Shown: piece by piece, positions 2,699 through 45,565 of the stretch
Position numbering within the stretch: the stretch's first letter is position 1
Layout of the letters: each line of letters begins with the position of its first letter
NCBI GenBank assembly: GCA_905221615.1
Contig: CAJNDT010002868.1
Span: forward strand, 62,001-126,000
Direction of reading: 5' to 3'
DNA length: 64,000 bases
DNA from: Symbiodinium sp. CCMP2592
Taxonomy: Eukaryota > Sar > Dinophyceae > Suessiales > Symbiodiniaceae
Made by a program: the position numbers and the translations under genes
Notes under the pieces: model-generated
Databases searched by the model: none
Told to the model about the DNA's origin: nothing
What the model saw: the letters and a program-made list of their open reading frames with translations, nothing else

Positions 2699-3151
2699 CA
2701 CAACTGGAAAGGCTTCCACTGACCCGCCTGCCTTCTGTAGATGACTTATGTGCTGAATGTACTTGTCAGATTGCGGCAAAAGTGCAGAAAGCGAGTGCAT
2801 ATGCCCTCATGAACATGACTGTTAAATGAAAACAATCGGTGGACACACCTAAAACCTGCCTCAGAAAACAGAAATCCATTTCGCTAATCTTGCTGGCTCA
2901 GGGGCCCAGCTTTTTTGCAGGTACATCCGACTGGCCAAGTCGGATATCCCATCTGCAACCGTAGCTTCGTTGCACACGGTAGGTCGCAGATGCCGTGTGC
3001 CCCTGCAAACTTAAAAACGAAAGGAGCAAGAAAACAAGAAAAATCCATGGGTCAAAGCATGAGCCTACAAAGGTTTGCAAACAGAAAAACCTAAGAAAAA
3101 TGGACATGTGAGTGCAGGTTTGTCGCATGTACAGCAGAATAACACAAACAG
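2699..3151 (-). repeat. Terminal direct repeat, 3' copy (453 bp)
   Basis: It matches 45113-45565 over 453 bp in the same orientation. The only difference I saw is A at 2748 against C at 45162. It lies just beyond the last ORF of the minus-strand retroelement, like an LTR or the pseudo-LTR of Penelope-like elements. It does not have obvious TG...CA ends. The flanks on both outer sides are spacer DNA. Confidence 0.9.
2914..3009 (-). ncRNA. Predicted pseudoknotted RNA fold in the terminal repeat
   Basis: Four helices are visible by eye. An outer 8-bp stem pairs 3002-3009 with 2914-2921. An 8-bp stem pairs 2993-3000 with 2972-2979. A 7-bp helix pairs 2986-2992, inside that stem's loop, with 2950-2956, making an H-type pseudoknot. 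An 8-bp hairpin (atccgact/agtcggat) spans 2925-2945. All four are perfectly paired within 96 nt. The strand follows the element's transcription direction. I could not match it to a hammerhead or a complete HDV-like ribozyme, so no activity is assigned. The same fold occurs at 45328-45423. Confidence 0.55.
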
Positions 3152-3165
3152 GCCCCCGAAGGGGC
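3152..3165 (-). other. GCCCC-UUCG-GGGGC hairpin at the internal/terminal-repeat junction
   Basis: Read on the element strand, a 5-bp GC stem closes a UUCG tetraloop, a very stable RNA hairpin. It abuts the terminal repeat, whose first base on this strand is 3151. It could serve as a 3' end or RT-recognition structure; that role is inference. Confidence 0.45.
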
Positions 3166-3226
3166 ACAGAAGCTTCAAGGTGCACGTTTTTTGCGACGGT
3201 TCCCAATCATCGTAATAGCAGCAAGC

Positions 3227-3598
3227 CTATTCACGTCTACGCTTCTTGATGGCTCTCTCACTGCGGTCAATAACCTGGTGGTAATAGCATCGGCAATGAT
3301 TGTGACCTTCGTCTGCTCGAGCACATACCCGGCCACAGTTCGTATGAGAGCACAATCCTGAGCATCGTGACATCCTTTGTTGAAAATCCGAAGAATCACG
3401 TAGGATTTCGACAACACGAAGCATCAACCGAATAAGGTCCTGTGGATGGATGTCATTAGAGCGAAGAGCATCGAGGGCATCGGCAGCTGATGTTTGCACA
3501 ATATCCTCCAAATTGTCATCGCTGGCTCGCCTCGACCCTGGTTCATAGCGAAGAGTACGACGACCACTGGACGACATGATTACACACTGAGACTTCAA
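3227..3598 (-). CDS. Small Cys/His-containing basic protein of the retroelement, unknown
   Basis: This 123-residue ORF is the last one before the 3' terminal repeat. Its middle has a hydrophobic stretch (HPQDLIRLMLRVVEIL) that looks helical. Its C-terminal third is rich in Cys and His (CSGLCSHTNC, CGRVC, HNHCRCYYH) and could bind zinc. It ends in a basic tail, KKRRRE. A better start may be the Met at residue 8 (MSSSGRR). I recognise no family. The size and basic Cys/His character would suit nucleic-acid binding, but that is inference. Confidence 0.45.
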   Translation of the reverse strand: MKSQCVIMSSSGRRTLRYEPGSRRASDDNLEDIVQTSAADALDALRSNDIHPQDLIRLMLRVVEILRDSSDFQQRMSRCSGLCSHTNCGRVCARADEGHNHCRCYYHQVIDRSERAIKKRRRE

Positions 3599-3727
3599 TA
3601 GGCTTGAGCACTGTACATCAGCACGAAAGAGGACAATACCTAGGCCAACATGTCAAGACTCGCAGGACAAGGACACCATTTATTCTCATGTGGCGTGATC
3701 CACTCAAGTCAAGGTCGTATCTACACT

Positions 3728-4360
3728 TTACAGTGGGTGAACAATGCGGCGCACATTAAGATCATCGATGAAAGCCGATCCAATACGCACTCGATCTTCA
3801 TTGGAGTGATGAATCCATTCCACATTTGCATGGCGCACTTGGGCAAGACGCCAAAGCTGCTGAATATTGAAGAATGTGCGATCGCCAACCAATCGGATAA
3901 TAGTGTAATCCCATTCTTTGCATACGGACGCAAACACCACAATGTGAGGTAATGCGGGAGCTTCACACGTGATCGGCGTGTACACGCTGGGTCCTTGCAT
4001 AAAGAACTCCCATACTTCAGCACGAAGATCCATACCTTCTGTTCTGCATTGTGTAACAAACTGTTCAAGATCATACATCGTATGGAATCCATGTCTGCGA
4101 AGAGTAACATCCAGAGTCTCAAGTGGATCTAGTGGTGGAAATGTGAAGAAGAAAATAATATGGCGTCGGGTGCTGATGAAAGTCAGCACTTTCTCTGTCA
4201 GAACAGTAAGTTCCCACATGGCGTCGAGGAAATGTCTACAACCTTCAGAAGGCACTACGAAAACATTCGGGCTCACATCCTGCAGTAAAAGAAGGACAAC
4301 ATGTTGATTGCAAAAGCAACAAAAACTCATGAGCTCGCATAACGAACCGCAATACAGCAT
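3728..4360 (-). CDS. Hypothetical protein of the retroelement
   Basis: The ORF has 210 residues. The first ~28 are hydrophobic and Cys-rich (including VVLLLLQD), so translation may start later or be joined from another exon. The rest looks like a normal globular protein (QPVEGC-like turns, FPPLDPLETLDVTLRRHGFHTMYDL as alternating helix signal, many aromatic residues). I recognise no domain. It lies on the same strand between the ubiquitin-like ORF and the small basic ORF, 30 bp downstream of the former, so it is probably part of the retroelement transcript. Confidence 0.45.
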   Translation of the reverse strand: MLYCGSLCELMSFCCFCNQHVVLLLLQDVSPNVFVVPSEGCRHFLDAMWELTVLTEKVLTFISTRRHIIFFFTFPPLDPLETLDVTLRRHGFHTMYDLEQFVTQCRTEGMDLRAEVWEFFMQGPSVYTPITCEAPALPHIVVFASVCKEWDYTIIRLVGDRTFFNIQQLWRLAQVRHANVEWIHHSNEDRVRIGSAFIDDLNVRRIVHPL

Positions 4361-4390: not shown

Positions 4391-4723
4391 TCACCACGAT
4401 GATTCGTGTGGCCAGGTTCTCACAAATTGAACGGCCTGCGTAGTATGCGGGAAGGCAGCAACTCGAGAAATCGAAGATGTGAATGGTAAATGTTGACCAA
4501 ATTGCCTTAATTGGAAGGCGTTCAAACGGGGTGGAATCCCCGTACGGTTCGCAAGCTCATCGCACACCTTCCTCTTCAGGTCATCAATCGTAGAATCTGT
4601 AGGCAAAGAGAGCCAGAAACCCATCTCACGTCCGCCAGAGCATATATCCGGAGGTACAACAAGTGGAATCCTGACCATCGGAGCTGGGGCCGGAAGGGCC
4701 GCCATACTTGCTGTTCGCTTCAT
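4391..4723 (-). CDS. Ubiquitin-like domain protein
   Basis: The chosen start (MKRTASMAALP) gives 110 residues; the open frame extends further upstream to 4837. Residues ~18-95 have a beta-grasp look: IPLVVPPD as strand 1, FWLSLPTDSTIDDLKRKV as strand 2 plus the start of the ubiquitin helix, then TGIPPRLNAFQL and FGQHLP, equivalent to the ubiquitin GIPP...L...G..L segment. No C-terminal GG is present, so conjugation is unlikely and it is better read as a ubiquitin-fold domain. A ubiquitin-like ORF is unusual cargo for a retroelement. It shares strand and tight spacing with the neighbouring element ORFs. Confidence 0.55.
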   Translation of the reverse strand: MKRTASMAALPAPAPMVRIPLVVPPDICSGGREMGFWLSLPTDSTIDDLKRKVCDELANRTGIPPRLNAFQLRQFGQHLPFTSSISRVAAFPHTTQAVQFVRTWPHESSW

Positions 4724-4846
4724 CTTACAAATTGAGCCGTAAGAACCTTCGAAGTGTGATGCTGCTAGGATGCACAACATATGTCTGCGACTCAGAAGTT
4801 GCAAGCAAGTTCGGGACAACAGTTTTGTCTTCCACATACGTCCGGC

Positions 4847-5434
4847 TTACATGATGTGACGAGAGCCTCCAAGTGAAACAGTGGTGCTTGATCTTGACCT
4901 AGACCTCGACCGAGATCTCTCACGGACCTCCGATTCACTCATGGATCTGCTTCTCCGAGCAGCAGGAGCAGTCTGTTGCCGTCGACGGGGCAGTGCACCA
5001 CGCTGTTGAGGATCCGAAAGAGTCGATCCATCCATGACTGTCGGTGCAGCGTCACTCGAAACAGCTCCAAGAGAAGCATCCGGATGAGAGGGAGACGGAG
5101 AGAAAGGAAAACGACCAGAAGCAGAGAAGGACACAGGAAGGGGAGGAGGAAAAGCAGGAGGGGGAGGAGGAGGAGGAGGAGGGAGGGGAGAAGGAGAAGG
5201 AGAGGGGGCAAGAAACGAAGACAACGAAGGCACAGAAGACACAGGGACAGAGTGGGAGGGAGCGCCAAGATGTTGTGCAACAAGGGCATCTGCATCGTTC
5301 TGAATCCGGCGTCGAAGATGAGAAAGAAAGACTGCCCTCTGGCGGCGATCTCCCAAGATCTGAAAAAGAGCCGTGACTTGATCTCCATCCAGACTGCTGA
5401 TTATGTCGTTGCAGCTCAGCAAAGAGCCAGACAT
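4847..5434 (-). CDS. Pro-rich and Arg/Ser-rich protein of the retroelement
   Basis: The start MSGSLLSCND gives 195 residues; the frame is open to 5488. The first ~60 residues look folded and helical (LDGDQVTALFQILGDRRQRAVFLSHLRRRIQ). A Ser/Pro stretch with a run of ten prolines follows, and the tail holds RRSRSMSES and RSRSRSRS dipeptides. That layout (small helical domain, proline linker, RS tail) is seen in RNA-binding or splicing-related proteins. I know no exact family. The purine-rich plus strand opposite also stays open, but the N-terminal domain favours the minus reading. Confidence 0.5.
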   Translation of the reverse strand: MSGSLLSCNDIISSLDGDQVTALFQILGDRRQRAVFLSHLRRRIQNDADALVAQHLGAPSHSVPVSSVPSLSSFLAPSPSPSPLPPPPPPPPPAFPPPLPVSFSASGRFPFSPSPSHPDASLGAVSSDAAPTVMDGSTLSDPQQRGALPRRRQQTAPAARRSRSMSESEVRERSRSRSRSRSSTTVSLGGSRHIM

Positions 5435-5545
5435 TGATACGTTGACAGCGGTGCATAAGTACTTGAACCAACGTCTGCCAAGACTCACATTTTTGCAAAC
5501 TTATGCACACAATTGGACAGAACATTGGCGGACACTTTTTTAACC

Positions 5546-10211: not shown

Positions 10212-10216
10212 CGAGC

Positions 10217-10556: not shown

Positions 10557-10591
10557 GGATTTGTTTGATCTTATTATTAACTTGACAGGCA

Positions 10592-20885: not shown

Positions 20886-20985
20886 NNNNNNNNNNNNNNN
20901 NNNNNNNNNNNNNNNNNNNNNNNNNNNNNNNNNNNNNNNNNNNNNNNNNNNNNNNNNNNNNNNNNNNNNNNNNNNNNNNNNNNNN
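20886..20985. other. Assembly gap of exactly 100 N
   Basis: A gap of exactly 100 Ns is a common placeholder for unknown size. The flanks are the two ends of a nearly identical 15.3 kb segment, so the contigs may truly overlap and the gap may not exist. Confidence 0.99.
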
Positions 20986-25651: not shown

Positions 25652-25656
25652 CGAGC

Positions 25657-25996
25657 CGAAAAACTAACTATATAGTTAAATTTTTTTTGTCTACACTATA
25701 TCTTATTTTTTTTGTCTATAGTTAGTTTTCGTAGGTTGTGAACGAGAGACATAAACTAACTATTATAGACAAAAATCTGTCTATAGTTAGTTTTTGTCGG
25801 CGCCACCATAAACTAACTATTATAGTTAGTTTTTTCCCCCCGGAAACTAACTATAGTTAGTTTCTGGCCGGCGGAAAGTTCGACCAAACTTCGGGTTCCC
25901 GGCACAAACACCCCACAGCAAACTTCGACCAAACTTCGGGTTGCCCAAGAGCAAACTTCGACCAAACTTCGGGCAAACTTCGGGTTGCATTTTCCA
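25657..25996. repeat. Subterminal motif cluster, left end (copy B)
   Basis: AACTAACTATAGTTAGTT palindromes followed by caaacttcgaccaaacttcg repeats, as in copy A. Confidence 0.7.
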
Positions 25997-26031
25997 GGAT
26001 TTGTTTGATCTTATTATTAACTTGACAGGCA

Positions 26032-26780: not shown

Positions 26781-26944
26781 TTTTTCAACAGGAAAGCCAG
26801 TCCACAGCAACACAACGATTCTTCCTCAAGAAACGAGAGTCCGAGTAGCTGTGCTTCGGTCGGCCATGCAAAGTTTTCACTCCAAGTATCCCTCAGCGAA
26901 GTAGTAGTACCGTCATATTACAGCTTCTTCTTCACGAAGGGCTA

Positions 26945-27105
26945 GAAGAGGGCTGCTTCGAGTGAGGAGGGCTACAAGAGGGCTACTTCGAGTGAGGAGG
27001 GTTGCAAGAGGGTTGCTGAGAGGGCTGCTTCGAGTGAGGAGGGCTACAAGAGGGCTACTTCGAGTGAGGAGGGTTGCAAGAGGGTTGCTGAGAGGGCAGC
27101 AAAAA
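26945..27105. repeat. Tandem GAGGGCTACTTCGAGTGAGG repeat (copy B)
   Basis: Same as 11505-11665. Confidence 0.8.
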
Positions 27106-27371
27106 AAAGTACTGTTGAAGAAAGCAACCAGGAGAGGATGTGCTGGTGTTGTTGTCGTTGGAGTTGTTGTTGGCTGTTCCAACCCCAACAATCGCTAGCA
27201 CTCGACTTCACAAACCCTGGCGAAAGCCACAACCTTAGGATAAATCCCAAAGCCCCAACCCTACAATGCTTTCTACAGATCCTTCCAGTGTTCTTCTTTT
27301 TGCTCCGATCAAGCCTCGTGCTCACGAAAATGCCTTAGGCATTCGTCCTCTGATCTCGCCAGAAGAATGCC

Positions 27372-29751: not shown

Positions 29752-30526
29752 GTAGTAATCTCATTTGTGCTGTATATAGTCGTAGCAGATAGTAGTCGCA
29801 TGTTTTATCGAATAATAGGACCAATAACTGCTGCAATAAATAACAGTATCACTCGACATCAAGGTCGCTGGGGATGGGGTCTCGTCGGGGATCTTTGTTG
29901 ATGCCTGTTCATTTCGGGATAGGGTTTTGTCGGTGAACTTTTTTTATGGCTACTTTATTAGTGTCGTCAACAAAGCCTGAGCATCGGCAAAGGGCATCTT
30001 CGGAATTGCACTGAGAAGGATCATCCTCGCATATTTATGATACTACCTCTGATTCTCGTTCTGATTATTATGTTTATACACTCCAGGAATCCCTCTTTGT
30101 TTGCATTCTTCTTCTGGATAGTGTAATTTTATGCCTGACACGATTATTATGATAGCTATTCCAATCATAATACTAATCCTGCACTCAAGAACCCCTCTCT
30201 GAATATGAATATATAGAAAGCTTCTTATATAGTAGTTGTTGGTGAAGTTTTCGCCATAATAAGCTTCGGCACTGTCTCTGTTCGCGCTTTTTTTTGTCCA
30301 ACTCACGAAAGCACGAGTGCGAGATCAGAGAAAGCCCAAAATCGTCATGGACGACCCCCCCCCTTGTGCAGCTAGCTGTCAAATAATAATTGGTTGCCCC
30401 AGGAGCCCCGACCCAATAAATCTAAACCCATTATAAGTCCTGTGTAAGGCTTTGAAAACAAGCCGGAAGTAGCCAGCACTCCAGAGAATCATCCACGACA
30501 CGGCTCGACATACGAAGATCGCGATC

Positions 30527-33188: not shown

Positions 33189-33329
33189 TGTTGTTGTGCA
33201 GCAGGAGAGGAGGAGCCGAACAAGGATGGGAGTCAATAAGAAGCCTGTCGCAACTCTCAAAAAGCTTCGATGGCAGGAGAAGGCGGCAAGTCATCCATTA
33301 TTGTCATCCATATACAATCATCACTGCAC

Positions 33330-33660
33330 AAACTTCGCTGAAACTCCGATTTGGCACACCGAACTTTACTCGAAACTTCTTCGAAACTTCGACCCCGTAC
33401 GACCACCGTATATCGAAGTTTGGTCGAAGTTTCGTCGAAACTTCGACTTACTAAGTCGAAGTTTAAGTCGAAGTTTTAGATAGGCTAAGTCGAAGTTTTG
33501 ATATATCAATAGTGTTACCTCTCGAGTAAGTGTGCAAAGATAAGTCGAAACTTCGACTTACACAACTTAAACTGCGACCAAACAGCGGCCAAACTTCGAC
33601 CAAACTGCGGCTTGTGCTAAGTCGAAGTTTCGACGAAACTTCGACCAAACTTCGATGTTT
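33330..33660. repeat. AAACTTCGAC/GTCGAAGTTT motif cluster (copy B)
   Basis: Same as copy A at 17890-18215, with both orientations present. Confidence 0.75.
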
Positions 33661-33921
33661 GGCTGGCTGATCATGATCGAAAACCAAAGCTCTCGAGCTG
33701 CGACATGTATGTTTCCGACCTCCTAAATGTCTGATCACTCAAGCAGACCCTCAATCGCACATAGCTATTTTGGGCTTCTGGTGGTTGTCGTCAGCCATCA
33801 AAACTCGGATGTGGTGCGACGACCGGTCACTGTTGAATCGTGATAAGCCGCCACCAAAATCATCCGATATCGTCCACAGCAGGAGGTTGCTGCCACCAGG
33901 GTTCATCCCCAGGTGCTCGTC

Positions 33922-36418
33922 TCACTTCCTCGGGTACTTTGCATCGAAGCATTTCCCTGCCTCGTGATGGGCTTCTTTGGCTTTCCCACGAGCTGCCGCC
34001 AGCAATGTGGGATCATTCTTTTGGTCGCCTTTCGGCTTGTGCACATCGAAGGCCTTTCTGTATGCACTTGTCACGGCCCGGTGTCGCAGCACAGATCGTG
34101 ATGGCTGCTCCACCCCATCATTCCTCTCGCCCTTGCCGTCCTTCTTCTCCTCGTCCTCGTATTCATCGTTGGCACGACCATCCTCCTCCAGGATGGGGTC
34201 ATCCTCGAAGCCATCGGCCTCCTCCTCGGGAGACTCCTCGCACCAGGACTCGTCCCACCACCACCACTCGTGGCTGCCATGGGAAGCCTGCTCATCGTTT
34301 GCCTGCTGATCATCCACAGCCTTGCACGAATTTTCTATGTTAAACAAGAATGGGGCTTCAGTCTATAATAATGTGGATGATGATGTAGGAAAAGACTAAG
34401 GGTTTAGGGGTTTAGGGGGTTATCTTTTTGGAGGTATGTCGTTGTTGTTGTTGTTGCCGAACATGCAAGAAAGTGCAAAACCCAATCAGGAATGCTGTTG
34501 CGGGTCCTAGAAATACAGATACAAGCTTCTGGGTTTTAGATATGAAGATAGTCGAGGTTGTGGCTTTTCATATTGTTTCTCAAATACTCAACTTGAGTAG
34601 TGGATTCCGCAGCAAAACAAACATGACTCTGAAACTCAGCTCAAAGAACCCCGCTGCTGTCCTCCGCGATCTGTCGCTGCTTCTTCATCGGCTGTTTTGG
34701 CTTGTTGCCCGCCAATGTCCCATCATCGAAAATAGTGCTCTTGCCCCTCTTCAGGATGCCAGCCGGCCTTTTTTTCGGTGCCTCCTTCGGCTCGTCGGGA
34801 TGCTTGCCTTTCTTGGCCTTCGTCGGCTTCTCGCTTGAACCCTTGGTTTCTTTTGCACTCGGCTTCTTCTTCACGGCTTGGTTGTAGGTCTTCCTCAAAG
34901 TAGCCTTCTCATCCTCATTGGCGGGCCTCGTCTTGCTTCGAATCCGTCGAAGCAAATCCTCCTCAGAGGCATCCATGAGCACAGGCTTCTTGTTCTTGGC
35001 CGCCGAAGCCGACGATGGAGTCGACTTCTTGGTCCCTGTTCGCTCGTTGGCCCCAGCCTTCTCCAAATAATATTTGCAAAAGAAGTAAGGCTTGTTGTAT
35101 TTGGCTCCGATGGACCATCGGTTTCTATTCTTATACACTCGAGGCACGAAAGCAAGAAAGGATACACCATCGTAGCATCCCTCGTGGTACTACCATGCAA
35201 CAACTCGCGACTTTGTATTCGCTCTTGGCATCTGTGCACTCTAGGAATTGTTTTTTTTGCAGGGATGACTCGAAGCTTTACCACGACGAAAAGGAGCACG
35301 AACAACCACAATAAAAAATCATCGTCATCATCATCGTCATCATCCTCTAGGGTCTTGTTCGGGTATTATTGTTATTTCCAGCTCGAAACCCACACCTGCT
35401 TGTCCACGGTGTTCTTCTTCATCTTCGCCTTCTTCTTCTCGGTCTTCTCGGCTGCCGGCTCCTCCTCAAAAATCTCCTGGATAGTTGGGCCTGCAGCAGT
35501 TGATGAGGCAGCTTCCGCCGAAGACGCCTCTCTCAGCACCCTGTGCTCGCTACCCCGCCCCTTAGTAGCACCACCAAAAATCCTGAGCCCTGGCACCACG
35601 AAGCCATCGGAGCTCGCATCATCGTCTGCATTCTTCTCGTCCTCGTCGTGCTCCTCAGAAGACGACCGAATCGGATGGGCACCCAAAATCTGGTCCAGCA
35701 TCTGCATCGGATTATCCGTCTCTGGCTCCTCGGTGGGGGGCGACTCGTCGGCCTGAGCAGCAACAGTAGTAGTAGTAGTACCACCAGCAGCCGCACTCGT
35801 TGTTTCGCCGCCGCTGCTGCCAAACGAATTCTGGGTGCTCATAGCCGGCACCACATCTTTCATCATAGCCAAGAGCTTGCCTCGTTTTTCGGGGATGGCT
35901 TATTCTTCAGTATACCAAACAAAAGTAAACGGTTGCAATAGGAATCCCGAAACGGAAAAGCGCCGATTAAAAGCCAAATCGCTGATGACTCTCATCTCGC
36001 TGTCGCTGAACCTGCGGTGGGCACGATCAAGAAGTCCACGGTCACATTTCAATGACCTCAAATGGGATAGGCCCATACGGATGTTCTCGGACACGGAATC
36101 GATGAGGGCGGAGTCCTCCAGCTTCGTAGCATTAATCGAACTTTTCGCATGGCAGGCCTCCAAAGCAAGCTTGACTTTCGATTTGTGCAAAATACCGTTG
36201 GTTGCTTTGGCAAGAATCCCACTGTACAATCGGTCCAATCGTACAATCCATGAAACTGGTACTGCCGACTTCCAGCTCACATTCACTGGTGGTGCCACCA
36301 ACTTGTGTAGGTGACGGGACTGCATCGAATCCATGTAGTCCTCGATCGGCTTCTGTATATCCTGAACTGTCAAGTCCGGGTTCGCACGAGCCCGCTTCGC
36401 AGCACTGCCACTCGCCAT
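33922..36418 (-). CDS. Multi-exon cargo gene of unknown function (copy B, complete start)
   Basis: Coding blocks are 36418 to ~35905, ~35880-35372, ~35147-34641 and ~34347-33922. Block 1 starts MASGSAAKRARANPD with a short basic motif, then a helical globular region (KLVAPPVNVSWKS, RLDRLYSGILAKA, IRMGLSHLRSL) and a basic end. Block 2 is disordered, rich in Ser, Thr and Glu. Block 3 starts with an aromatic patch (NRWSIGAKYNKPYFFCKYY) and is then Lys-rich. Block 4 is acidic with a WWWWDESW run and ends KCFDAKYPRK. All lie on one strand with 150-290 bp between blocks, which suits introns, but splice sites are not certain and blocks 3-4 could be a second gene. I recognise no family. Confidence 0.5.
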
Positions 36419-36912
36419 AACGATGCTATTATTATGTATTCAAAACCCTTGTTTGATTGCAAAACCCCCCGTACTAATGATAGGCACTGAAAGAATAAGC
36501 TCTGGATGTAGTGAGTTCATGCACTACTCGAATAATAAACCATAGAGGTTGCTCTATCACGGTTCCACATACATGCTCGCATCCTTCGCTGCGAAGAAAA
36601 CCTGGGCCCAATGAACATCACGAAGTGGCTTCTGTCTGTCTGTCGAAGCTCCCCAGGAATCTCTCAAAGTAGCAGCCACAATACGATTATCTTTTGAGGT
36701 AGCACTAGCCTTTCAAATATTTCTTTTTACTATCTCTGGAAGTACCACTCTCGATCTTTCTGAATGAACAGTGCTATTTCCATATGTTTTGTCTTTGTGT
36801 CTATGACATTTGGCTTTATCCTGATATCTCCAAAGGTAACACTTCTAACTCTCTTCTTTCTTCGTCACAACTCACGGTAACAATGCTTTGCAGCTCTGAT
36901 CATGCACGACAC
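36419..36912. other. Noncoding gap upstream of the four-block gene
   Basis: AT-rich with no convincing ORF. It may hold the promoter of the minus-strand gene that starts at 36418. Confidence 0.4.
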
Positions 36913-37287
36913 TCACTCCGGACGGGACCTTGTTTTCCTGGCTTCTCGCGAGGCTGCTAGAATCATCGTGTCGAGCTCGGACATGTCCAGCTCACCAATA
37001 ATAGGGCCCCCCTCGGGCAATATCGTCTTGTTGTCGTCGTCCTCAGCAGCAGCAGCAAAGGCGGTGTCCTCGTCCTGGCCAAAGCGAGTCCTGTTGTCGT
37101 CGTCGGATGATTCCTCCGTGTCGTCGGCCTCCTTCTCCTCGGCCCGCTTTTGTTTTTTAATAGGAGGTCCTCCATAGTCACGACCACCATCCAGAAAAAC
37201 ATATTCACCTCCATGGCCACCAGCATGGGCAGCTCCTCCAAGCCTTGGTCGAGAAAGGACGGCACCCCGCACAAAAGCATGATGCAT
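36913..37287 (-). CDS. Acidic protein or exon with a candidate nuclear localisation signal
   Basis: Open for 124 residues. It contains a Gly/His-rich start, PPIKKQKR (basic cluster, possible nuclear signal), a strongly acidic EESSDDDN stretch, and ends ASREARKTRSRPE. Codon use and composition resemble the other cargo exons. The Met start is uncertain, and it could be an exon of a longer gene. No family recognised. Confidence 0.4.
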   Translation of the reverse strand: MHHAFVRGAVLSRPRLGGAAHAGGHGGEYVFLDGGRDYGGPPIKKQKRAEEKEADDTEESSDDDNRTRFGQDEDTAFAAAAEDDDNKTILPEGGPIIGELDMSELDTMILAASREARKTRSRPE

Positions 37288-37299
37288 TTCTCAAAAGCT

Positions 37300-38215
37300 C
37301 ACTGAAAACCTCCCTCAGGGTTTTATCCCTCCGATATCTTCCAGTTTATCTCTCCAAGAAGCATCCCTCCAAGTATCCCTCAGAAGCTGATTGTCTCCGA
37401 TACCTTCTTATCTCTCCGAGCATCCCACACAGTATTGATACGAGTGTGTTTTATTGTTATCTCTCAAAGTATCCGTCGAAGTCCCAGGCAAGTACTTCCC
37501 GTCAGATTAGCTCTAGTACTACTAGTCTTGGGGATAATAATAATGAGGAAATCATATTGTCGTCCCTCCAAGTAGTATCCCTCCGAGCAGCTCTGATCTC
37601 TCAAAGTATCTCTCCAAGCACCCCTCGGAGTAGCTTTGAATATAAACACGATCTCTCAAATCTCTCAAAGTAGCCCTCATGTCTTCTTAATAAAGAATCT
37701 CTAAAGGCACCCTCATCAATGTATATATGCACATGAATACATGTTTCCGTAACATATATATATATATGTTACACATTATTGTAATACTACTAGGAGGCCC
37801 AGGGTCTCCTCGCAGACTGGGTTACTCTGAGGGGTGCTTGGAGAGATACTTTGAGAGAGGCTTTGAGATACATAGGTATATACACAAACACATATTATAC
37901 ACATATAAATATATACATGTATATACACACACATGCACATTGGCTTTTAATATAACAAGCGATCTCTCAAAGTACCCCTCATGTCTTCTTAAAGCATCTC
38001 TCAAAGCACCCTCAAAGTATCCCTCACAGGCCCAGCATCCCTCCTCGGAGTAAGACCCCTCACAGTACCCCTCATGTCTTCTTAAAGCATCTCCACAGGC
38101 ACCCTCAAAGTATCCCTCAAAGGCTCATTCAAAATGTCTCTCCAAGCATCCCTCGGAGTAGCTTTATTAAAAACGATCTCTCACAGTATCCCTGGAAAGA
38201 TCTCTCAAAGTATTC
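37300..38215. repeat. Dispersed TCTCTCAAAGTATCCCTC motif field with AT microsatellites
   Basis: Many copies of ctctcaaagtatccctc, ctccgagcatccctc and close variants lie about 20-60 bp apart. A (TA)n stretch lies near 37755 and TATATACA words near 37880-37930. No gene is seen. Confidence 0.75.
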
Positions 38216-38337
38216 TTATCTCTGCAACAAGTATAAAAATAAACAGCTTGCCGTCCAGATTCTTCGCCGCCGCGGGGGGTGGATAGGGTGGTGGCCTCGG
38301 GGGTTTTGTTGCCATGGTACTACCACTGCTACTGGTA

Positions 38338-38358
38338 CTACTGCTATTATTGCTTCTG

Positions 38359-38389
<31 letters not shown>

Positions 38390-38783
38390 AGCACTACTAC
38401 TACTACTAACAGTAGTAGTACTATTTGTTTGCAGCCCGGATTCGAGGGCAGCAGCGGCTGCTTCTTCCCTTCGGGAAGAAGCTTCGGCTGCGACTTCGCC
38501 GTTTTTGGCCTTGGGTGGGGGACTAGAAGAAGTAGTAGTAGGAGTAGTAGCAGTAGTAGTAGAAGTAGTAGTAATAGTAGTAGTAGTAGTAGTAGTAGTA
38601 GTAGCAGTAGTAGTAGTAGTAGTAGTAGTAGTACTAGTACTAGTAGTAATAGTTGGTAGTAGTAATGCTGCAACTACTACTACAACTACTACTAGTGCCA
38701 TCCGGATTCAATTCCTCAGCCGCTTTCGCCGGCGGAGCCGCTGGCTGTTGTGTCCTGCTGCTGCTGGTACTATACCGCACCCA

Positions 38784-38819
<36 letters not shown>

Positions 38820-38845
38820 GACGACTACTACTACTACTACCCAGC
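38338..38845. repeat. Inverted trinucleotide tracts (CTA)n and (TAG)n
   Basis: (CTA)n tracts are at ~38360-38407, ~38668-38692 and ~38784-38838; a long (AGT)n tract is at ~38525-38655. CTA and TAG tracts are complementary, so the stretch can form long hairpins. Between the tracts are short non-repetitive blocks that could be exons of the RRM gene (minus strand: SPPPKAKNGEVAAEASSRRE and QQPAAPPAKAAEELNPDG). Confidence 0.8.
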
Positions 38846-39616
38846 AAGCCGCCTCCACCATGGTGGCGGCGGTTGCTGTGGAGGCCGAGGGCGGCGAGGA
38901 GGAGGCACCACCACACCACGAGGCACTGCTGGCCTCCCACCACCAGGTAAAAAAACTTGGCTGCCAGAAGAAATGCTGCCACCACCACCACCATATAAAC
39001 ATGGGCCAGCAGCAGCAGCGGCAGGAGGTGCTCGAGGAGGAGGTGCTGCTGCTGGTTGTTTTGCCCCGATGCCCGCCGACATAGAAGGATGCCCTTGCCG
39101 GGCATTGGCCTGCGACACTGCAAGCGGGTGTCGGGAGCACATACGTACCCCATTTAAGGCTTGTATAGCGGCGAGGAGTGCCTCCTGAGACTTGAAGGAT
39201 AGGAATGCGGAACACATCTTATCCGGTCTGTATTGGCCGGTTCGCACCAGTTGCACTCGCACGCAGTCACGAAGCCCAAGCCGCTGCAGATTTTCGAAGA
39301 TACTGGAGGACGTCGTCAAAAAGTCCAGGTTTCTTACGTAGCATCGGAAACAGTCGAGGTTGGCCATGGAAGTGGCTACAAAGTCCTTTCTACTACTACT
39401 GTGCTGTTGCTGCTGCAGTTGGTGCTGCTTTTGCTGCTGCTGCTGTGTGCTGCTGTGTGGAACACTGTTTTTTCTGTGCTGTTGTTGTGCTGCCGCTCTG
39501 AAGCTGCTTGCTGCTGCAGTAGTGTGTTGTTGTGTGCCCCTACTTAAGCTGTCTGCTGTGGTGCTGCTTGCTGTGGACGGTGTTTGCTGCAGTGTGTTGT
39601 TGTTGTGTGTTGGCAC
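38837..39616 (-). CDS. RRM RNA-binding protein with Gln-rich N-terminus
   Basis: 259 residues in the open block. Residues ~1-80 are Gln/Ser/Thr-rich. Residues ~91-172 form one RRM: RNP2-like CYVRNL at 92-97, SIFENLQRLGL as helix 1, RNP1-like KMCSAFLSF at 133-141, SQEALLAAIQALNG as helix 2, and a final strand near PLAVSQA. Residues 180-259 are Ala/Gly/Pro-rich. The 3' side runs into trinucleotide tracts that may be introns, so the true C-terminus may lie further left. RRM proteins bind RNA and act in splicing or mRNA fate. It is cargo of the transposon. Confidence 0.7.
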   Translation of the reverse strand: MPTHNNNTLQQTPSTASSTTADSLSRGTQQHTTAAASSFRAAAQQQHRKNSVPHSSTQQQQQKQHQLQQQQHSSSRKDFVATSMANLDCFRCYVRNLDFLTTSSSIFENLQRLGLRDCVRVQLVRTGQYRPDKMCSAFLSFKSQEALLAAIQALNGVRMCSRHPLAVSQANARQGHPSMSAGIGAKQPAAAPPPRAPPAAAAAGPCLYGGGGGSISSGSQVFLPGGGRPAVPRGVVVPPPRRPRPPQQPPPPWWRRLAG

Positions 39617-39839
39617 TGTTGTTGCTGTTGTTGCTGGCTTCTTCTTCTTGCCCTAAGACAAAAGGCCTGAAGCCAGCAGACCTGCCGGGACTGGCTGCTT
39701 CCTCCGAACTACCATCTTCCAGATCCATACCGTATCCCTCCAAGTAGCAACTTCCTTTATTTGTGCTTCTCTTTCAGACTACAAACTCTCAAAGCATCCC
39801 CCTGCTTCTTGTTCCATCGGACTATAATAAGAAGCTCTC

Positions 39840-40345
39840 AGAGCATCCCTCGGATTCTGTTTCTTTTTCTTCGGGCCTGAGACATCTCTCAAAGTATCCC
39901 TCATCAAAGTTTGTTTCCTTCCGGCTATAAGCTCTCAAGGCATCCCTCAGTTTCTGTCTCTTTCTTCGGGCCTGAAACAACTCTCAGAGCATCCCTCGGA
40001 TTCTGTTTCTTTTTCTTCGGGCCTGAGACATCTCTCAAAGTATCCCTCATCAAAGTTTGTTTCCTTCCGGCTATAAGCTCTCAAGGCATCATCCCTCAGC
40101 TTCTGTCTCTTTCTTCGGGCCTGAAACAACTCTCAGAGCATCCCTCGGATTCTGTTTCTTTTTCTTCGGGCCTGAGACATCTCTCAAAGTATCCCTCATC
40201 AAAGTTTGTTTCCTTCCGGCTATAAGCTCTCAAGGCATCCCTCAGCTTCTGTCTCTTTCTTCGGGCCTGAAACAACTCTCAAAGTATCCCTCAAAGTCTG
40301 TCTGTTTCCTTCGGGCTAAAAGCTCTCAAGGTATTATCCCTCATT
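39840..40345. repeat. Tandem repeat, 146-bp unit, about three copies
   Basis: Units contain ctctcagagcatccctcgg, ttcttcgggcctgagacat, ctctcaaagtatccctcat and ttccttccggctataagc. Two successive units are offset by 146 bp; one has a 3-bp insertion. The units embed the same TCAAAGTATCCCTC motif found across this side of the transposon. Confidence 0.85.
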
Positions 40346-40421
40346 AACCCCTACTCTACAACTCCCGGCGCTTTGTTTTCTTCCTCCGGGCAGCAGCTGC
40401 TTTCGGATTTCCGGGGGGCCC

Positions 40422-40784
40422 TCACTTCTTACCCGGCTTCTTCATTTTGCCCTTCATCGCCTTCATCGCCTTCATCGCTTTCGTGGCCTTCATCGCCTTC
40501 ATCGCTTTCATGGCCTTCGTCGCCTTCATCGCTTTCATGGCCTTCATCGCCTTCATCGCTTTCATGACCTCGTCGTTCTTCGGCTCCTCCGAGCTTTTCT
40601 CCTCCTTCTTGTTGTTCTCCTCCTTCTCGTCGGTCACGGTGGTGGTCTTCGCCAAAGCTGGATCCCACTCCCAAATCTCGGAGATGGCATCCGTTGTATC
40701 GACGATCTTTTTCAATCTGTATTGGCCCCACACCTTTGTCCACTTTTTCACCCAAGTGGATGAAATCGTGTTGGACCTTTGCAT
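40422..40784 (-). CDS. KAM-repeat basic-tail protein or exon
   Basis: 120 residues. The first ~50 look folded and Trp-rich (WVKKWTKVWGQYRLKKI, AISEIWEWDP), followed by an acidic/Lys linker. Residues ~74-110 are repeats of MKAMKA/MKATKA, ending MKGKMKKPGKK. Lys-Ala-Met repeat tails are, from memory, frequent in Symbiodiniaceae proteins and resemble basic chromatin-protein tails. The start Met is plausible but an upstream exon is possible. It is the first gene inside the right end of the transposon. Confidence 0.55.
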   Translation of the reverse strand: MQRSNTISSTWVKKWTKVWGQYRLKKIVDTTDAISEIWEWDPALAKTTTVTDEKEENNKKEEKSSEEPKNDEVMKAMKAMKAMKAMKATKAMKAMKAMKATKAMKAMKAMKGKMKKPGKK

Positions 40785-40924
40785 GATGATGGCGGCAGAA
40801 AGTGGCGTCCTAGGAAGATGTCCTAGTGTGAGGCGATAACAGCAGCGGCAGTGTTGGCATTGTTTGTGGAGGGATACAAGAGGGCAGAGGGCTACTTAGA
40901 GGAGGGGACGTGCTGATGTTGTTG

Positions 40925-41080
40925 TCGTTATCTCTCCGAGCATCCCTCACAGTATTATTGATAATAAGCATCCCTCACAGTATTGATAACGAGTTATCTC
41001 TCCGAGCATCCTTGGTAGTATTGATGATGCTACGGGTGTGTTTTGTTGCTATTATCTCTCAAAGTATCCCTCGTCGAAGT
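40925..41080. repeat. Further ATCTCTCCGAGCATCCCTC motif copies
   Basis: Four to five copies of the dispersed motif, same orientation as at 37.3-38.2 kb, just inside the right subterminal region. Confidence 0.65.
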
Positions 41081-41123
41081 CCCAGCCAACAAAACTTCAA
41101 CTCAAAAACATCGGAAACTAGGC

Positions 41124-41517
41124 ACAGCAAACTTCCACCAAACTTCGGGTTCCCGGCACAACAAACTTCGACCAAACTTCGGGTTCCCGGCACAACAAAC
41201 TTCGACCAAACTTCGGTTTCCCGGCACAAACAACCGACGGAAACTTCGATCAAACTTCTGTTTACACCCCAGATCACAACCCGAAACTTCGACGCAGTTT
41301 CGTCGAAAGTTCGGGTTGCTGGGCCCCCACAAAACTAACTATATAGTTTGATTTTTGCCTATAATAGGCAAAAAACAAACTATATAGTTAGTTTTTGCCG
41401 CAAGATATATATCTTCTTTTTTTGGACTATAGTTAGTTTTCGTAGGTTGCGAAAACAAGCCACAAAACTAACTATATAGTTACCTCTTGTTTTTTCGTAG
41501 GTTGTGAAAATAATCTA
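41124..41517. repeat. Subterminal motif cluster, right end
   Basis: About 41124-41310 has AAACTTCGACCAAACTTCGG / GTTCCCGGCACAAC repeats (four units). About 41331-41490 has AACTAACTATATAGTT-type palindromes and two tcgtaggttg(c/t)gaaaa blocks, also present near the left end. It mirrors the left-end cluster. Confidence 0.75.
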
Positions 41518-41549
41518 CGGCAAAAAATAGCCTAAGATAGTCTTAGGGG
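41518..41549 (-). repeat. Right terminal inverted repeat
   Basis: The reverse complement begins CCCCTAAGACTATC and matches the left TIR at 29 of 32 positions. Followed by AAA (41550-41552), the target duplication. Confidence 0.85.
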
Positions 41550-41552
41550 AAA

Positions 41553-43489
41553 GCGTGTATGTTCTGCCAAAGCAAGATTGCATCGTTGTAAGATCGGGTG
41601 TGAGGACACACCTCAGCAACAAGCATCTCTGTGACTCGCGCCATCACAACCAAGAACTGGCGAGCCGGGTGAGAGGCAAAACTAACGATTGGCCTGCCTC
41701 CTTTCCATTCTTTCTTGAACTTGGGGAGAATGTAAGCCGATGACACACGGGCAGCACGAGATCCAAAACGGAAGGGAAAGGATTCAAGAATCCGAGGTGG
41801 CACTGCATGTTCCATCTGAACCATAATCGTCGAAGGATTTAACGACAATGGCTTGAAGACCGATTCAGCAGTAAAAGTGTTCTGGAGCATCATCCAATAC
41901 TTCACAGGGCAAAAAACATGCGCATGCGAGCCTTCATGATCTCGGACATGCCACACCAATCCTTTGGTCCTTTTTCGCAACTCACGAACCTGATCAACCG
42001 ACCAATGTGTTCCGACGTGTTGTGAGTGCATCTTCCATGCCTTCTGCCACACACTTCGAATATCAATAGTCGGATAATGCATCAAGCCATGATGATCGAT
42101 CCAATGCCTCACGTCTTCAAGAAACATCGTCCAATGATCCGTAGCGTTCATGAATACCGGATTGGAGCAACTGGACTGGGCCAACTGAGTCAAATCAGGT
42201 GGCAGGGTCAGCAACGTGGCAGAAGAAGCAATGTGACCCTGGACAACAGTCAGGTGTGGATGACGTCGAAGAAGTTCATGGCAGCAACATGTGACACCAG
42301 CCTTTTGCGGCTCCTCATGCGGGTCCCACGACTGCAAGATTGGTTTATGCGAAAACAACACATCTTTGATTTTAGGGTGACTTTTGGCAACAAGCGAGGT
42401 CGCTGGAATGTGGTACGGCAGCAGTCGATCCGTCGATACATCCAAAATATCTCCCAACATGCCACGAACCAAGCGTTTGAAGCCTACTTCAGGCAACAAG
42501 AACGGAGTGGAAAGGGGGCGGCATGTAGTTGGGCACCTCAACTGTCGAAATTGCAGCACAGTGTTCAATCTGGACCTGCAGATCGTCTCATAGAACGGGT
42601 CACCCAGATGAGTGGCCATCCTGAATAATCTGTAGAGAAAATCCGAGTCAACTCGGTTGCTGCGCAGATATTTTTGGGCAAGAAAGGACTTCAACCCGTC
42701 AGAAGCTAAATCGAACAGAATCTGATAACTGTATACGATGTTCTGAACAATGTGTGTCGAACGAAAGACCGAAGGAGTCAATCCAGTGAGCTGGAAATTC
42801 CGACGTCGAAAGCGTCGAAAAGTTCTCCATGAAGTCACAAATCTGCGAACACATCTGACTGGATCCGAGTTGGCAATCTGTGCATGTTTTGCTCTGACAA
42901 GAGAGCGAACCCAAGGAGCATTAAGGCGAGGCTGTAGCAAATTGATAAATGTCTGTTCAATTGTGTGCAAACAATCGACCTGTGGGACATGCATGATCAA
43001 CAGAGGAATGGCCATGTGATAATTCTGTCGTCGATAATGCCAAAACAGCGAAAGTTCACCACACACTGACTTGCCGGCCCGGATCTGTTGGAATTTCCCC
43101 CATCTTGTACGCTCACGGTCGCCCAGTGTTTGGGATGATGATCCGACATACATGAATTTCTGTAACTCAGGCTGGAGAAAGATGCGACAATAAATCACCG
43201 ACTGCGTCTGAAAGAATTTCCAGGTGTAGCTGGAGCATTTTAAACGTAGCTGAGAGGTCAATGGCGACTGTACAAGCCCGAACTCACAAGCAAGCAAAAG
43301 GAGTTTTCCACGGATCCAAATAACAATGTCCATGCACTGTCGTCCGAACATGGTAGGTGTCTCGTAGAGACCTTGGAAAAATAAATAAGCATTCCGAAGT
43401 AAATCCACTTCACTTCGGTGCCGTTTCCACCAACCTTGTGGCGGATTGCCGCTGCGATACATGTCCCTGGCATCCAGTATGGCCTGTAG
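41553..43489 (-). CDS. Retroelement pol, 5' half: GIY-YIG nuclease plus RT fingers
   Basis: From the first Met (43462) residues run MYRSGNPP to NIHAF, where the transposon interrupts the gene. GIY-YIG residues are VIY (89-91), YVG (105-107), an Arg in DRERTR (115-120), Glu169 in TIEQTFINLL and Asn181: all five catalytic-core positions are present in the right order. RT finger motifs begin near residue 577 (YILPKFKK, then GGRPIVSF). The palm continues at 10179/25619 in the same phase. GIY-YIG nicks target DNA and RT copies the element RNA in Penelope-like elements; an N-terminal nuclease is the permuted (Chlamys/Naiad) order. The frame is continuous with ORF1 upstream apart from one UGA, so it is probably made by readthrough, with nine codons between the stop and this Met. 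Confidence 0.85.
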
Positions 43490-43492
43490 TCA
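43487..43492 (-). promoter_or_regulatory. UGA-CUA stop-codon readthrough signal between ORF1 and pol
   Basis: ORF1 ends GTG GCT TGA and the next codons, in the same frame, are CTA CAG GCC. No other stop follows until pol is interrupted. UGA followed by CUA is the best-known efficient readthrough context in eukaryotic and viral mRNAs. In-frame placement between a gag-like ORF and pol strongly suggests regulated readthrough. A downstream stem-loop was not evident. Confidence 0.7.
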
Positions 43493-44878
43493 AGCCACAA
43501 GAATTGTTCCGGCAGCAAGAATACGGAGCAGAGAATTCGCCTTAAGCTTGGGAATATCACGGATGGGTACACCCCAGTTGGCAACAACCTGATCCAATTC
43601 GGCCTGTTCATTGGAAGGAAGGTCCGCATGCCATCGTTGGACATGAGCTGTCCATGTCTGGAGCTTCTGTCGATTGTTCTTGCTCAAGTTCAATCCTTCA
43701 ATCCAGGTCGATACTTCTTTGTCCGACTTGCAAGCCTTCCAACTGCGACTCAAGAAGTGACGTTTGCTTGGATCCGCGAGAACAATCTTCACAACCTGTC
43801 CAACATGCGATGATGTTCCATACTCAGGCTGAGGAGCAGAACTCGAATTTCCTGGGCTGCGACCCTGGGTCTCAGCTTCATCGGGCTCAACATTCAAAGG
43901 TTCTGCATGATTCCCCGATGGTTTGCCTTTCTGGAATGCCTGCATGAGACTAGTTTTGGGCTCAGCCGTCTGACCACGAAGAAGGCGAGTTGCACCATCC
44001 GGAACTTTCTGAGCTGAGGGCGCGGACTCCGTCACACGTCCTGGGGGGCTTTCTTCAATCGGCAACGTTTTCTGAACTGCAACCTCTTGATTAGAAGAGC
44101 GGGAGGGGGAAGCATTCTCAAAATTCGCAAGTTGTTGTTGAAGAATCTGGATCTGATTTGCCATGGCTGCCTTCTCTGTGTCAACAGAGGCCTGAGGATA
44201 CAGACCTAGCATGTAGTCAACAACCTTCTGTGCCAACAAGTGTGTGGCCTGCGACTTGGAATCCGAACCGCTGCTCTTGGAAGCGGGGTCACTGGTACCA
44301 AGCACAATAGAAGCAAGCTCATCCAAGTCGACTTCTTCATCTCTCAGCTTTCCAAACAAGGCGTGGCAAAATACAACTTCACCGATCGACTTGAAGCCTG
44401 CGAAGAAAGTCGGTTTTCCTTCGGCAATATGGCGCACCCAATACGAATTCCAACCTTGATAGAGCAACGAGTGAAGCGGTATCATATGGGTCGGACATCC
44501 ATCAATCTGCTTTCGAACTGTCCAGTCAGTCTTCTTTACCCAACGAGCCAAGTTCAAGCCTGCAATACAACGGGAGTCCAAATAGTTCGGATTCTGGCAA
44601 AACTCAGCGGGCATCATCGGGCCGAAAACTCTCGGGGAGTTTGCAGCAGGTGGGGATGGGAGACCTGGAATGCGGGGGGTTGGCGAAATGTTCATAATCT
44701 GAGCAACACGTGGATTGGGTTGCCACGTGAGGTTCTGTGGCTGAAGCACTGCCAGTCTGTTCACTGGTGGGGCAGGTCGGGGTGCGGGGTGCTGCCAACT
44801 CTCAGGGGTAGGTGGGACCAAAGCAGGCAAGGAGGAGCTCCAGAAAGGGTTGCGGCGGGGGGAGCGTTCACGATCCAT
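43490..44878 (-). CDS. Retroelement ORF1 (gag-like)
   Basis: I start it at MDRERSPRRNPF (44878), giving 462 residues; the open frame extends upstream to 45007. The N-terminal ~90 residues are Pro-rich with a basic RERSPRR start. Residues ~95-200 look globular (AEFCQNPNYLDSRCIAGLNL, HSLLYQGWNSYWVRH). A short predicted coiled coil (AAMANQIQILQQQLANFE) follows near 240-258, then a Ser/Pro-rich linker. The C-terminal ~90 residues are a second folded domain (SRSWKACKSDKEVSTWIEGL). I see no CCHC knuckle. First-ORF position, coiled coil and frame link to pol suggest a structural or RNA-binding protein, but no family is recognised. Confidence 0.65.
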   Translation of the reverse strand: MDRERSPRRNPFWSSSLPALVPPTPESWQHPAPRPAPPVNRLAVLQPQNLTWQPNPRVAQIMNISPTPRIPGLPSPPAANSPRVFGPMMPAEFCQNPNYLDSRCIAGLNLARWVKKTDWTVRKQIDGCPTHMIPLHSLLYQGWNSYWVRHIAEGKPTFFAGFKSIGEVVFCHALFGKLRDEEVDLDELASIVLGTSDPASKSSGSDSKSQATHLLAQKVVDYMLGLYPQASVDTEKAAMANQIQILQQQLANFENASPSRSSNQEVAVQKTLPIEESPPGRVTESAPSAQKVPDGATRLLRGQTAEPKTSLMQAFQKGKPSGNHAEPLNVEPDEAETQGRSPGNSSSAPQPEYGTSSHVGQVVKIVLADPSKRHFLSRSWKACKSDKEVSTWIEGLNLSKNNRQKLQTWTAHVQRWHADLPSNEQAELDQVVANWGVPIRDIPKLKANSLLRILAAGTILVA

Positions 44879-45112
44879 GGCGGGATATGAGAACAACACC
44901 TGACTGCAGAGCTCAAGCCGGAATGATCTCCAGATGCAACTCCGGAATGCGACTCCGATCTGATTTCCAGAAATGTGATTTCCACTCAGTGATCTCCACT
45001 TGAACATGTTGTGAAACGGAACTGATTTCCGGAGCTGCTAACACAAGAACCCCGGTGGGCCGGCAACTTCGCCGTATAGCGACAAGGCCCTCGTGAGGGA
45101 GCTCTTGCCGAA

Positions 45113-45565
45113 CACAACTGGAAAGGCTTCCACTGACCCGCCTGCCTTCTGTAGATGACTTCTGTGCTGAATGTACTTGTCAGATTGCGGCAAAAGTGCA
45201 GAAAGCGAGTGCATATGCCCTCATGAACATGACTGTTAAATGAAAACAATCGGTGGACACACCTAAAACCTGCCTCAGAAAACAGAAATCCATTTCGCTA
45301 ATCTTGCTGGCTCAGGGGCCCAGCTTTTTTGCAGGTACATCCGACTGGCCAAGTCGGATATCCCATCTGCAACCGTAGCTTCGTTGCACACGGTAGGTCG
45401 CAGATGCCGTGTGCCCCTGCAAACTTAAAAACGAAAGGAGCAAGAAAACAAGAAAAATCCATGGGTCAAAGCATGAGCCTACAAAGGTTTGCAAACAGAA
45501 AAACCTAAGAAAAATGGACATGTGAGTGCAGGTTTGTCGCATGTACAGCAGAATAACACAAACAG
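45113..45565 (-). repeat. Terminal direct repeat, 5' copy (453 bp)
   Basis: Same length and nearly the same sequence as 2699-3151. On the element strand it precedes ORF1. The immediate flanks differ from the other copy (internal side ttgccgaa, outer side taaaccat). Confidence 0.9.
45328..45423 (-). ncRNA. Predicted pseudoknotted RNA fold, 5' terminal repeat copy
   Basis: Same four helices as 2914-3009. In this copy the fold would lie near the 5' end of the element RNA, upstream of ORF1. Confidence 0.55.

Follow-up and report, generated by a model that had tools for sequence, protein, structure and literature searches.

Organisation of the element and its interruptions

The genome of the dinoflagellate Symbiodinium sp. 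CCMP2592 (assembly GCA_905221615.1) contains a probable multi-gene retroelement within a stretch of 64,000 nucleotides, positions 62,001 to 126,000 of contig CAJNDT010002868.1, hereafter called the window. Two direct repeats of 453 bp, at 2699..3151 and 45113..45565, are 99.78% identical and enclose a chain of open reading frames (ORFs) carried by the minus strand, just as a first-pass annotation drawn from the letters alone had described. That annotation had also taken the repeat-bounded interval for a single element of about 11.5 kb; the mobile unit is real and so is its net length, but two long stretches inside the 42,867-bp interval are foreign to it, namely (i) a nested DNA transposon and (ii) a contig-end duplicate. 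Once these intruders are subtracted (15,929 and 15,440 bp, respectively), 11,498 bp remain.

The nested transposon, at 25620..41548, sits within the pol gene, has imperfect terminal inverted repeats (TIRs) of about 31 bp (CCCCTAAGACTATC) and is flanked by a 4-bp target site duplication (TSD), GAAA. It is absent from the copies C421 and C426, where pol continues across the insertion point and the 4-bp site is present once. As for the second intruder, the stretches 5546-20885 and 20986-36327 share 99.88% identity along 15.3 kb, with a run of exactly 100 N, the scaffold gap at 20886..20985, between them. Because the sequence that closes the first contig recurs where the second one opens, in a suffix-equals-prefix geometry, the 15.34-kb duplicate is most likely an assembly artefact, i.e., two contig ends with an unmerged overlap, rather than biology; it inflates copy counts drawn from the window contig. 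Copies of the C421 and C426 type, which are about 11.5 kb long without either intruder, support the net unit, and the uninterrupted copy in C426 (179,678-191,198) has about the same length from repeat start to repeat end. The window copy is itself damaged, with pol split by the transposon and an ORF3 matching only residues 75-556 of 559.

Read along the minus strand, the 11.5-kb unit comprises ORF1, pol (GIY-YIG-like nuclease, CxC linker and reverse transcriptase, RT), ORF3, a dioxygenase ORF, an RS-rich ORF, a ubiquitin-like ORF, ORF8 and ORF9. The 5' terminal direct repeat (45113..45565) is LTR-like, LTR standing for long terminal repeat; the repeat start of other copies, TGTTTGTG, is equivalent to position 45564 here, and base 45565 is probably a flanking base matching by chance. 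ORF1 (43493..45037, 505 aa from its ATG) occupies the position of a gag protein. The N-terminal part of pol (41546..43489) bears the GIY-YIG-like nuclease, the CxC linker and the motifs of the RT fingers (AYILPK.KK..GRPIVS), while its C-terminal part (24710..25619, with a near-identical assembly copy at 9270-10179) bears RT motifs A (NQDLSGFF), B (GAPMGS) and C (RYVDN). Then come ORF3 (22922..24460; assembly copy at 7482-9020), which has 559 aa in intact copies and is here reduced to residues 75-556, and ORF4 (21600..22748; assembly copy at 6160-7308), with a putative TET/JBP-like 2-oxoglutarate (2OG)-Fe(II) dioxygenase domain and a Ser/Pro-rich tail. Beyond the duplicate lie the Pro-rich and RS-rich open frame (4850..5500), the ubiquitin-like ORF (4394..4846), ORF8 (3731..4360), whose C-terminal 116 aa (MYDLEQF...) are conserved, and ORF9 (3230..3652, coordinates computed from locus L009), with 116 aa from MSSSGRR and a Cys/His cluster (CSGLCSHTNCGRVC...HNHCRC). 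The 3' terminal direct repeat (2699..3151) is preceded by the palindrome GCCCCTTCGGGGGC and ends in ...CCAGTTGTG.

Copies, selection and insertion sites

With the 453-bp repeat as a query, the host genome gave at least 53 matches, the genome-search counts being lower bounds as only the best candidates were scored. Many of these are paired about 11.0-11.5 kb apart (C426, C508, C4913, C1566, C2223, C5001, C3223, C402, C421, C4579, C686, and C543), while closer pairs occur in C1721 (9.7 kb) and C3335 (10.7 kb) and wider ones in C3857 and C1913. The C-terminal part of the RT gave at least 129 matches, from which 67 loci were assigned to the near family; this number excludes second fragments of a copy, distant families at 28-32% and the fragmentary loci C244, C820 and C2369, and counts the window twice owing to the assembly duplicate. 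The lists for the dioxygenase, the ubiquitin-like ORF, ORF3 and ORF1 were likewise trimmed to the near family with one row per copy (67, 63, 68 and 65 rows, respectively).

The ORFs travel together. Downstream of the RT, ORF3 is found at 62 of the 67 loci, the dioxygenase on the same strand at 63 (in 53 of them at 1.9-2.2 kb past the RT match) and the ubiquitin-like ORF at 59, all three being present in the same order and strand at 55, which bears out the expectation that full-length copies keep their ORF order. Upstream, ORF1 is retained at 57 of the 67 loci (within 4 kb for 54 of these), so that 5' truncation is rare. Conversely, the dioxygenase lacks an upstream RT at 4 of 67 near-family loci, and the ubiquitin-like ORF lacks an upstream dioxygenase at 2 of 63. 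The first-pass annotation had named copies ending after the RT as the outcome that would speak against it; such an ending was looked for and is not what these loci present.

Purifying selection acts on all seven ORFs tested, the Pro/RS-rich ORF not being among them. Median pairwise ratios of nonsynonymous to synonymous substitution (dN/dS, Nei-Gojobori) are 0.162 for ORF1 (10 copies), 0.048 for the C-terminal part of the RT (27), 0.105 for ORF3 (24), 0.136 for the dioxygenase (15), 0.139 for the ubiquitin-like ORF (16), 0.065 for ORF8 (13), and about 0 for ORF9 (11, close copies only), i.e., a range from about 0 to 0.16, against 0.823 for a long overlapping wrong frame used as control. Pairs were kept if dS lay below 1.5 and above 0.05 (above 0.02 in the case of ORF8 and ORF9), and are non-independent since they share copies. 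The RT set consists of 27 of the 28 loci L041-L068 (L063 was taken out for a stop codon), with the window's own two copies left out; in the other samples, ORF3 is represented by 24 of 28 loci, ORF1 by 10 of 13 five-prime loci, ORF8 by 13 of 14 three-prime loci, and ORF9 by 11 of 13. The accessory set initially listed, i.e., dioxygenase, ubiquitin-like, Pro/RS and large unknown ORFs, was incomplete, since selection also marks ORF8 and ORF9 as protein-coding.

In the copies read, the terminal repeats begin with TGTTTGTG, finish near CCAGTTGTG and measure 408-467 bp, apart from a shortened 3' repeat of 366 bp in C543 and a solo-repeat candidate of about 330 bp in C1113 (L035). The two repeats of one copy are 98.5-100% identical in nine copies (263-453 bp aligned), whereas repeats of other copies share 76-98% identity with the window repeat. 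The GC-rich palindrome is present before the 3' repeat in most copies read, with variants, as judged by eye, in C1721 and C3335. By eye, no target duplication is seen at the nine copies with both flanks. The copy in C426 is inserted in a Copia polyprotein ORF, and when its flanks are joined and used as a query, 27 of the 40 matches span 205-206 genomic bases per 198 query bases; in the two empty-site matches read, eight bases, TTTTTATC, are those missing from the filled site. Two arrangements deviate from single copies: C686:45782-68000 holds two head-to-tail element copies apparently sharing one terminal repeat, and C1247:197-10983 holds two truncated copies head to head, nearly mirror-symmetric, which may be an inverted insertion of the kind made by Penelope-like elements (PLEs) or a sequencing palindrome.

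A distant second family, with a pol of 925 aa, has an RT 28-29% identical to that of the near family. All 52 of its scored places are 98-100% identical (C191, C4914, C51 and others), suggesting that it has probably been active recently; same-strand pairs lie 12.5 and 13.3 kb apart at C1562 and C3168, respectively. ORF1 homologues at 27-28% identity occur upstream of the RT in this family too, 7 of the 14 distant ORF1 matches sitting 0.9-2.7 kb upstream of a 925-aa-family RT match; this pairing used 27 of the 52 RT places plus one from the search with the C-terminal part of the RT, the other 25 being on other contigs. At C174:183951-184334, a ubiquitin-like match (32%) lies 10 kb downstream from an RT of the 925-aa family and could be related cargo or chance.

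Pol and the accessory proteins

The pol of C421 is open over 949 aa, with the nuclease upstream of the RT within one ORF, and the same order is found in pol families of 925 aa and 916 aa. All domain calls, here as for the accessory ORFs, are read from conserved residues together with weak matches among relatives or sub-domains. The N-terminal region retains the pattern VIY...YVGS...R...E...P.LN, and a profile of nine relatives matched the I-TevI chain 1ln0 over the domain (E 0.57), with the Tyr, Arg, Glu, and Asn positions aligned; one of the nine, P0058, is without the Glu. Among the same nine, Pfam matches are all weak (GIY_YIG_2 in two, best E 0.065; GIY-YIG in one, E 0.32). With such scores, it is the alignment of the catalytic positions that makes the domain appear GIY-YIG-like. 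Between nuclease and RT, Cys355 and Cys357 (P0002 numbering) form a CxC present in 12 of 12 diverse sequences, where a His and further linker residues are also invariant. The RT follows with AYILPK.KK..GRPIVS, NQDLSGFF.SIP, GAPMGS and RYVDN, the latter accounting for 57 of the 59 motif-C-like matches in retrieved relatives. These motifs (AYILPK.KK..GRPIVS, NQDLSGFFxSIP, GAPMGS, RYVD) resemble those of PLEs. RVT_1 is found in relatives, where the best match (E 9.2e-6) scores 25.9 bits and so stays under the cut-off of 29.6, but not in the near family's own protein, and a profile of 13 RT cores reaches the RVT_1-type RTs of the host genome itself only at E 0.006 or worse. As such, the permuted GIY-YIG/RT initially proposed holds for the order of nuclease, CxC and RT by residues, not at the level of Pfam models in the family's own pol. 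Where relatives carry a species name, it is Symbiodinium microadriaticum, S. natans or Durusdinium trenchii, and scans of viral contigs with RT and dioxygenase alignments confirmed nothing.

ORF4 looks TET/JBP-like. The residues of its HxD...H...R signature are present in 17, 17, 14 and 15 of 18 aligned sequences, some of them truncated, and Tet_JBP is matched in two of the 18 (best E 0.0056), the window protein not being one of these. Distant dioxygenase-like matches at 24-41% identity occur elsewhere in the genome, many within ORFs of 1,000-3,800 aa (about 30% identity for those of C5277, C4986, C493 and others), and other mobile elements may therefore carry a TET/JBP-like enzyme. The ubiquitin-like ORF stays a resemblance of fold: one of its three distant relatives matches PI3K_rbd (E 0.07), presumably a ubiquitin-like fold itself. 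Both ORFs, which the first-pass annotation had named as a 2OG dioxygenase and a ubiquitin-like protein, do belong to the element, conserved and under selection, but no profile match backs these names in the window proteins. ORF3 gave at least 83 genome matches, all at 60% identity or above, and no homologue beyond the near family in the host genome search; two gene models from S. microadriaticum and S. natans, P0005 and P0006, have a piece resembling it after the RT, as judged by eye and from alignment A2.

Placement, competing explanations and likely mechanism

PLEs of the Chlamys and Naiad type are defined by the order nuclease-CxC-RT, share an insertion-in-fingers domain with telomerase and are not known to carry a canonical hammerhead ribozyme; they are essentially single-ORF, with pseudo-LTRs and complex tandem or inverted insertions. 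PLE pseudo-LTRs are in general frequently accompanied by tails, truncation and TSDs. These PLEs with an N-terminal endonuclease (EN+) were reportedly described by Craig et al. in Mol Biol Evol in 2021. The present element shares with them an EN upstream of the RT in one ORF, the CxC in between, direct terminal repeats and the absence of a detected hammerhead: Rfam gave no such match in the window (E<=1) or in L012 1480-2150 (E<=5), and no other ribozyme either. It differs from them by its eight ORFs, where PLEs commonly hold one or two genes, and by its fixed repeats, few 5' truncations, YVDN, and dioxygenase. No RNase H or integrase Pfam match was found in the ORFs scanned, and the element does not conform to LTR retrotransposons of the Gypsy, Copia or BEL type, nor to DIRS, its direct repeats being simple and no recombinase match being found in those ORFs. 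The whole is well explained by an autonomous multi-ORF retrotransposon of the EN-bearing (Chlamys/Naiad-like) PLE branch established in a dinoflagellate, a reading that we hold to be probable.

Several observations weigh against it. The PLE placement, drawn from domain order and motif resemblance, is a probable one. In whole-protein Pfam scans (E<=5), no family was matched in the near family's own pol, ORF4 or ubiquitin-like protein, be it an RT, GIY-YIG, dioxygenase or ubiquitin model; five further dioxygenase relatives were without any Pfam match, and Protein Data Bank (PDB) searches returned no RT with pol and no dioxygenase with the dioxygenase. Tox-ART-HYE1 outscores the GIY-YIG models in one of the nine relatives used for the nuclease (E 0.0063), and the amicoumacin kinase 6sum (E 0.082) ranks ahead of 1ln0 in the same profile search; 6sum and other PDB matches were judged to be chance. 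Motif C is commonly YxDD, from which YVDN departs, and the AlphaFold models of pol and dioxygenase are both poor (mean predicted local distance difference test, pLDDT, of the two: 45.8 and 36.0). Fixed ends with rare 5' truncation are atypical of target-primed insertion, the 8-bp target deletion is one site and no rule, and the demethylase role considered below for ORF4 is conjectural.

Those ends invite another explanation, namely a new class of integrase-less LTR retroelement with true LTRs made by strand transfer, whose PLE-like RT, of PLE/telomerase descent, and GIY-YIG-like nuclease would insert finished double-stranded DNA at a break. The fixed repeat ends in the copies read, the near-identical repeats within a copy, the gag-positioned ORF1 at 57 of 67 loci with so few 5' truncations, the lack of a visible target duplication with the 8-bp deletion at one site and the solo-repeat candidate would all suit it; on the other hand, neither RNase H nor integrase is matched in the ORFs scanned, inspection gives no primer site, the 5' junction starting with TTCGGCAAGAGC and not TGG, and the head-to-tail pair of C686 appears to share a repeat. 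It is given less weight because the Penelope elements of one bdelloid rotifer, ordinary members of the class, are also reported with TSD-less insertions and solo pseudo-LTRs (PMC3846280), traits that as such do not discriminate, and we regard it as rather unlikely. Its more specific form is just as doubtful, i.e., a PLE-lineage element turned true LTR-type, with a gag-position ORF, repeats regenerated at each insertion, GIY-YIG cleavage with target deletion replacing the integrase and its own TET/JBP-type enzyme rewriting methylation in a host group noted for heavy CG methylation; if true, such a descendant would form a bridge between PLEs and LTR elements.

Two further explanations are far less credible. 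The idea that the ORFs past the RT are host genes, trapped a single time between pieces of elements, might draw on the other dioxygenase-like and ubiquitin-like matches in the genome (about 24-50% identity), but is contradicted by co-location at 63 and 59 of 67 RT loci, by purifying selection across copies, by the terminal repeats that enclose these ORFs and by the ORF3-like piece in P0005 and P0006; its probability is minimal. Scarcely any likelihood is left either for a giant element of 42.9 kb in which the 15.9-kb stretch and the tandem duplication would be genuine: both do fall between the two 453-bp repeats, but C421 and C426 are without both and continuous at the insertion point with the 4-bp site once, and the duplication adjoins the 100-N gap with a contig suffix equal to a contig prefix.

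For a PLE-type retrotransposon, the following cycle can be proposed. A full-length RNA would be transcribed from the 5' repeat and packaged with ORF1. The GIY-YIG nuclease would cut AT-rich DNA, and the RT would copy the RNA; the protein of an Anolis PLE cleaves both strands and favours AT-rich DNA (PMC11167929). Since the repeats are near-identical within a copy while copies differ, the second terminal repeat would arise within that one event, either through template switching or because a circular or dimeric RNA is read round. The insert would then be sealed with no target duplication and a small target deletion, and the rarity of 5' truncation suggests that copying normally runs to completion. 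ORF4 would most likely oxidise a methylated base of the element, N6-methyladenosine (m6A) in the RNA or, in the DNA, 5-methylcytosine (5mC) or a T derivative, whereby new copies might escape or reshape host methylation, while ORF3 and the small ORFs would serve as helper proteins. Most of the Symbiodinium genome is reported to be CG-methylated (PMC5890265); a TET/JBP-like oxidase in a dinoflagellate element suggests a control of methylation on new copies.

Accessory-laden PLEs are already known. The Terminons, giant Athena-class PLEs of bdelloid rotifers, are reported to reach 40 kb with many ORFs (PMC6431247), so that the first impression of the largest and most complex layout of its kind has to be abandoned. 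Like the present element, they unite an RT of the PLE class and numerous accessory ORFs within a single mobile unit, but they are described as endonuclease-deficient (some with stand-alone GIY-YIG-like ORFs), telomeric, bearing hammerhead motifs, and mostly 5'-truncated (PMC6431247, PMC5408684); the accessory ORFs named for them encode DEDDy, GDSL, Rep, coiled-coil and transmembrane proteins, the main text of PMC6431247 being without the word "dioxygenase". The EN+ Penelope of Adineta vaga likewise has terminal repeats, in the form of pseudo-LTRs about 190-220 bp long, with solo pseudo-LTRs and some insertions lacking a TSD on record, but a single ORF of about 842 aa with a C-terminal nuclease in the described copy, as well as inverted repeat copies and tails (PMC3846280). 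Among LTR-bounded retroelements, orchid Ty3/Gypsy elements also carry a 2OG-Fe(II) dioxygenase (2-ODD) ORF, reported to demethylate m6A in vitro; they differ by their Gypsy RT, an enzyme of AlkB type and not TET/JBP-like, their plant hosts and their 25 kb (PMC9289625). In dinoflagellates, SymbioLINE-Dnmt and SymbioDIRS-Dnmt3 are retroelements with a captured DNA-methylation enzyme as well, but these are LINE and DIRS elements with cytosine methyltransferases (DNMTs), and the main text of PMC5890265 is without Penelope, TET or dioxygenase.

What is new is the combination of an EN+ PLE-like pol, multi-gene cargo and fixed repeats; no description of such an element was found among the titles and abstract openings listed by searches of the open-licence PMC literature. 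It suggests that elements of the EN-bearing PLE branch can combine sharply defined terminal repeats with a conserved cargo of several genes, a point of relevance to how PLE repeats form and how PLEs insert. Together with the DNMT-carrying LINE and DIRS elements reported in Symbiodinium (PMC5890265) and the RNA demethylase reported in orchid Gypsy elements (PMC9289625), the TET/JBP-like protein kept under purifying selection in this dinoflagellate element makes the idea of a contest between element and host over methylation directly testable.

Regarding the remainder of the window, the nested 15.93-kb transposon contains several ORFs that no Pfam family matches, one ORF with an RRM (38840-39652) and, at 31803-32593, a tandem array of seven repeats of about 113 bp; an Rfam MIR834 match at 38330-38633 was dismissed as an inverted repeat internal to this transposon. 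The dinoflagellate spliced leader has 429 exact sites in the host genome against 0 for the reversed control. Outside the element, an ORF at 49578-50996 has a match (E 2.9e-7) to the beginning of a ubiquitin carboxyl-terminal hydrolase (UCH) and is a probable host gene.

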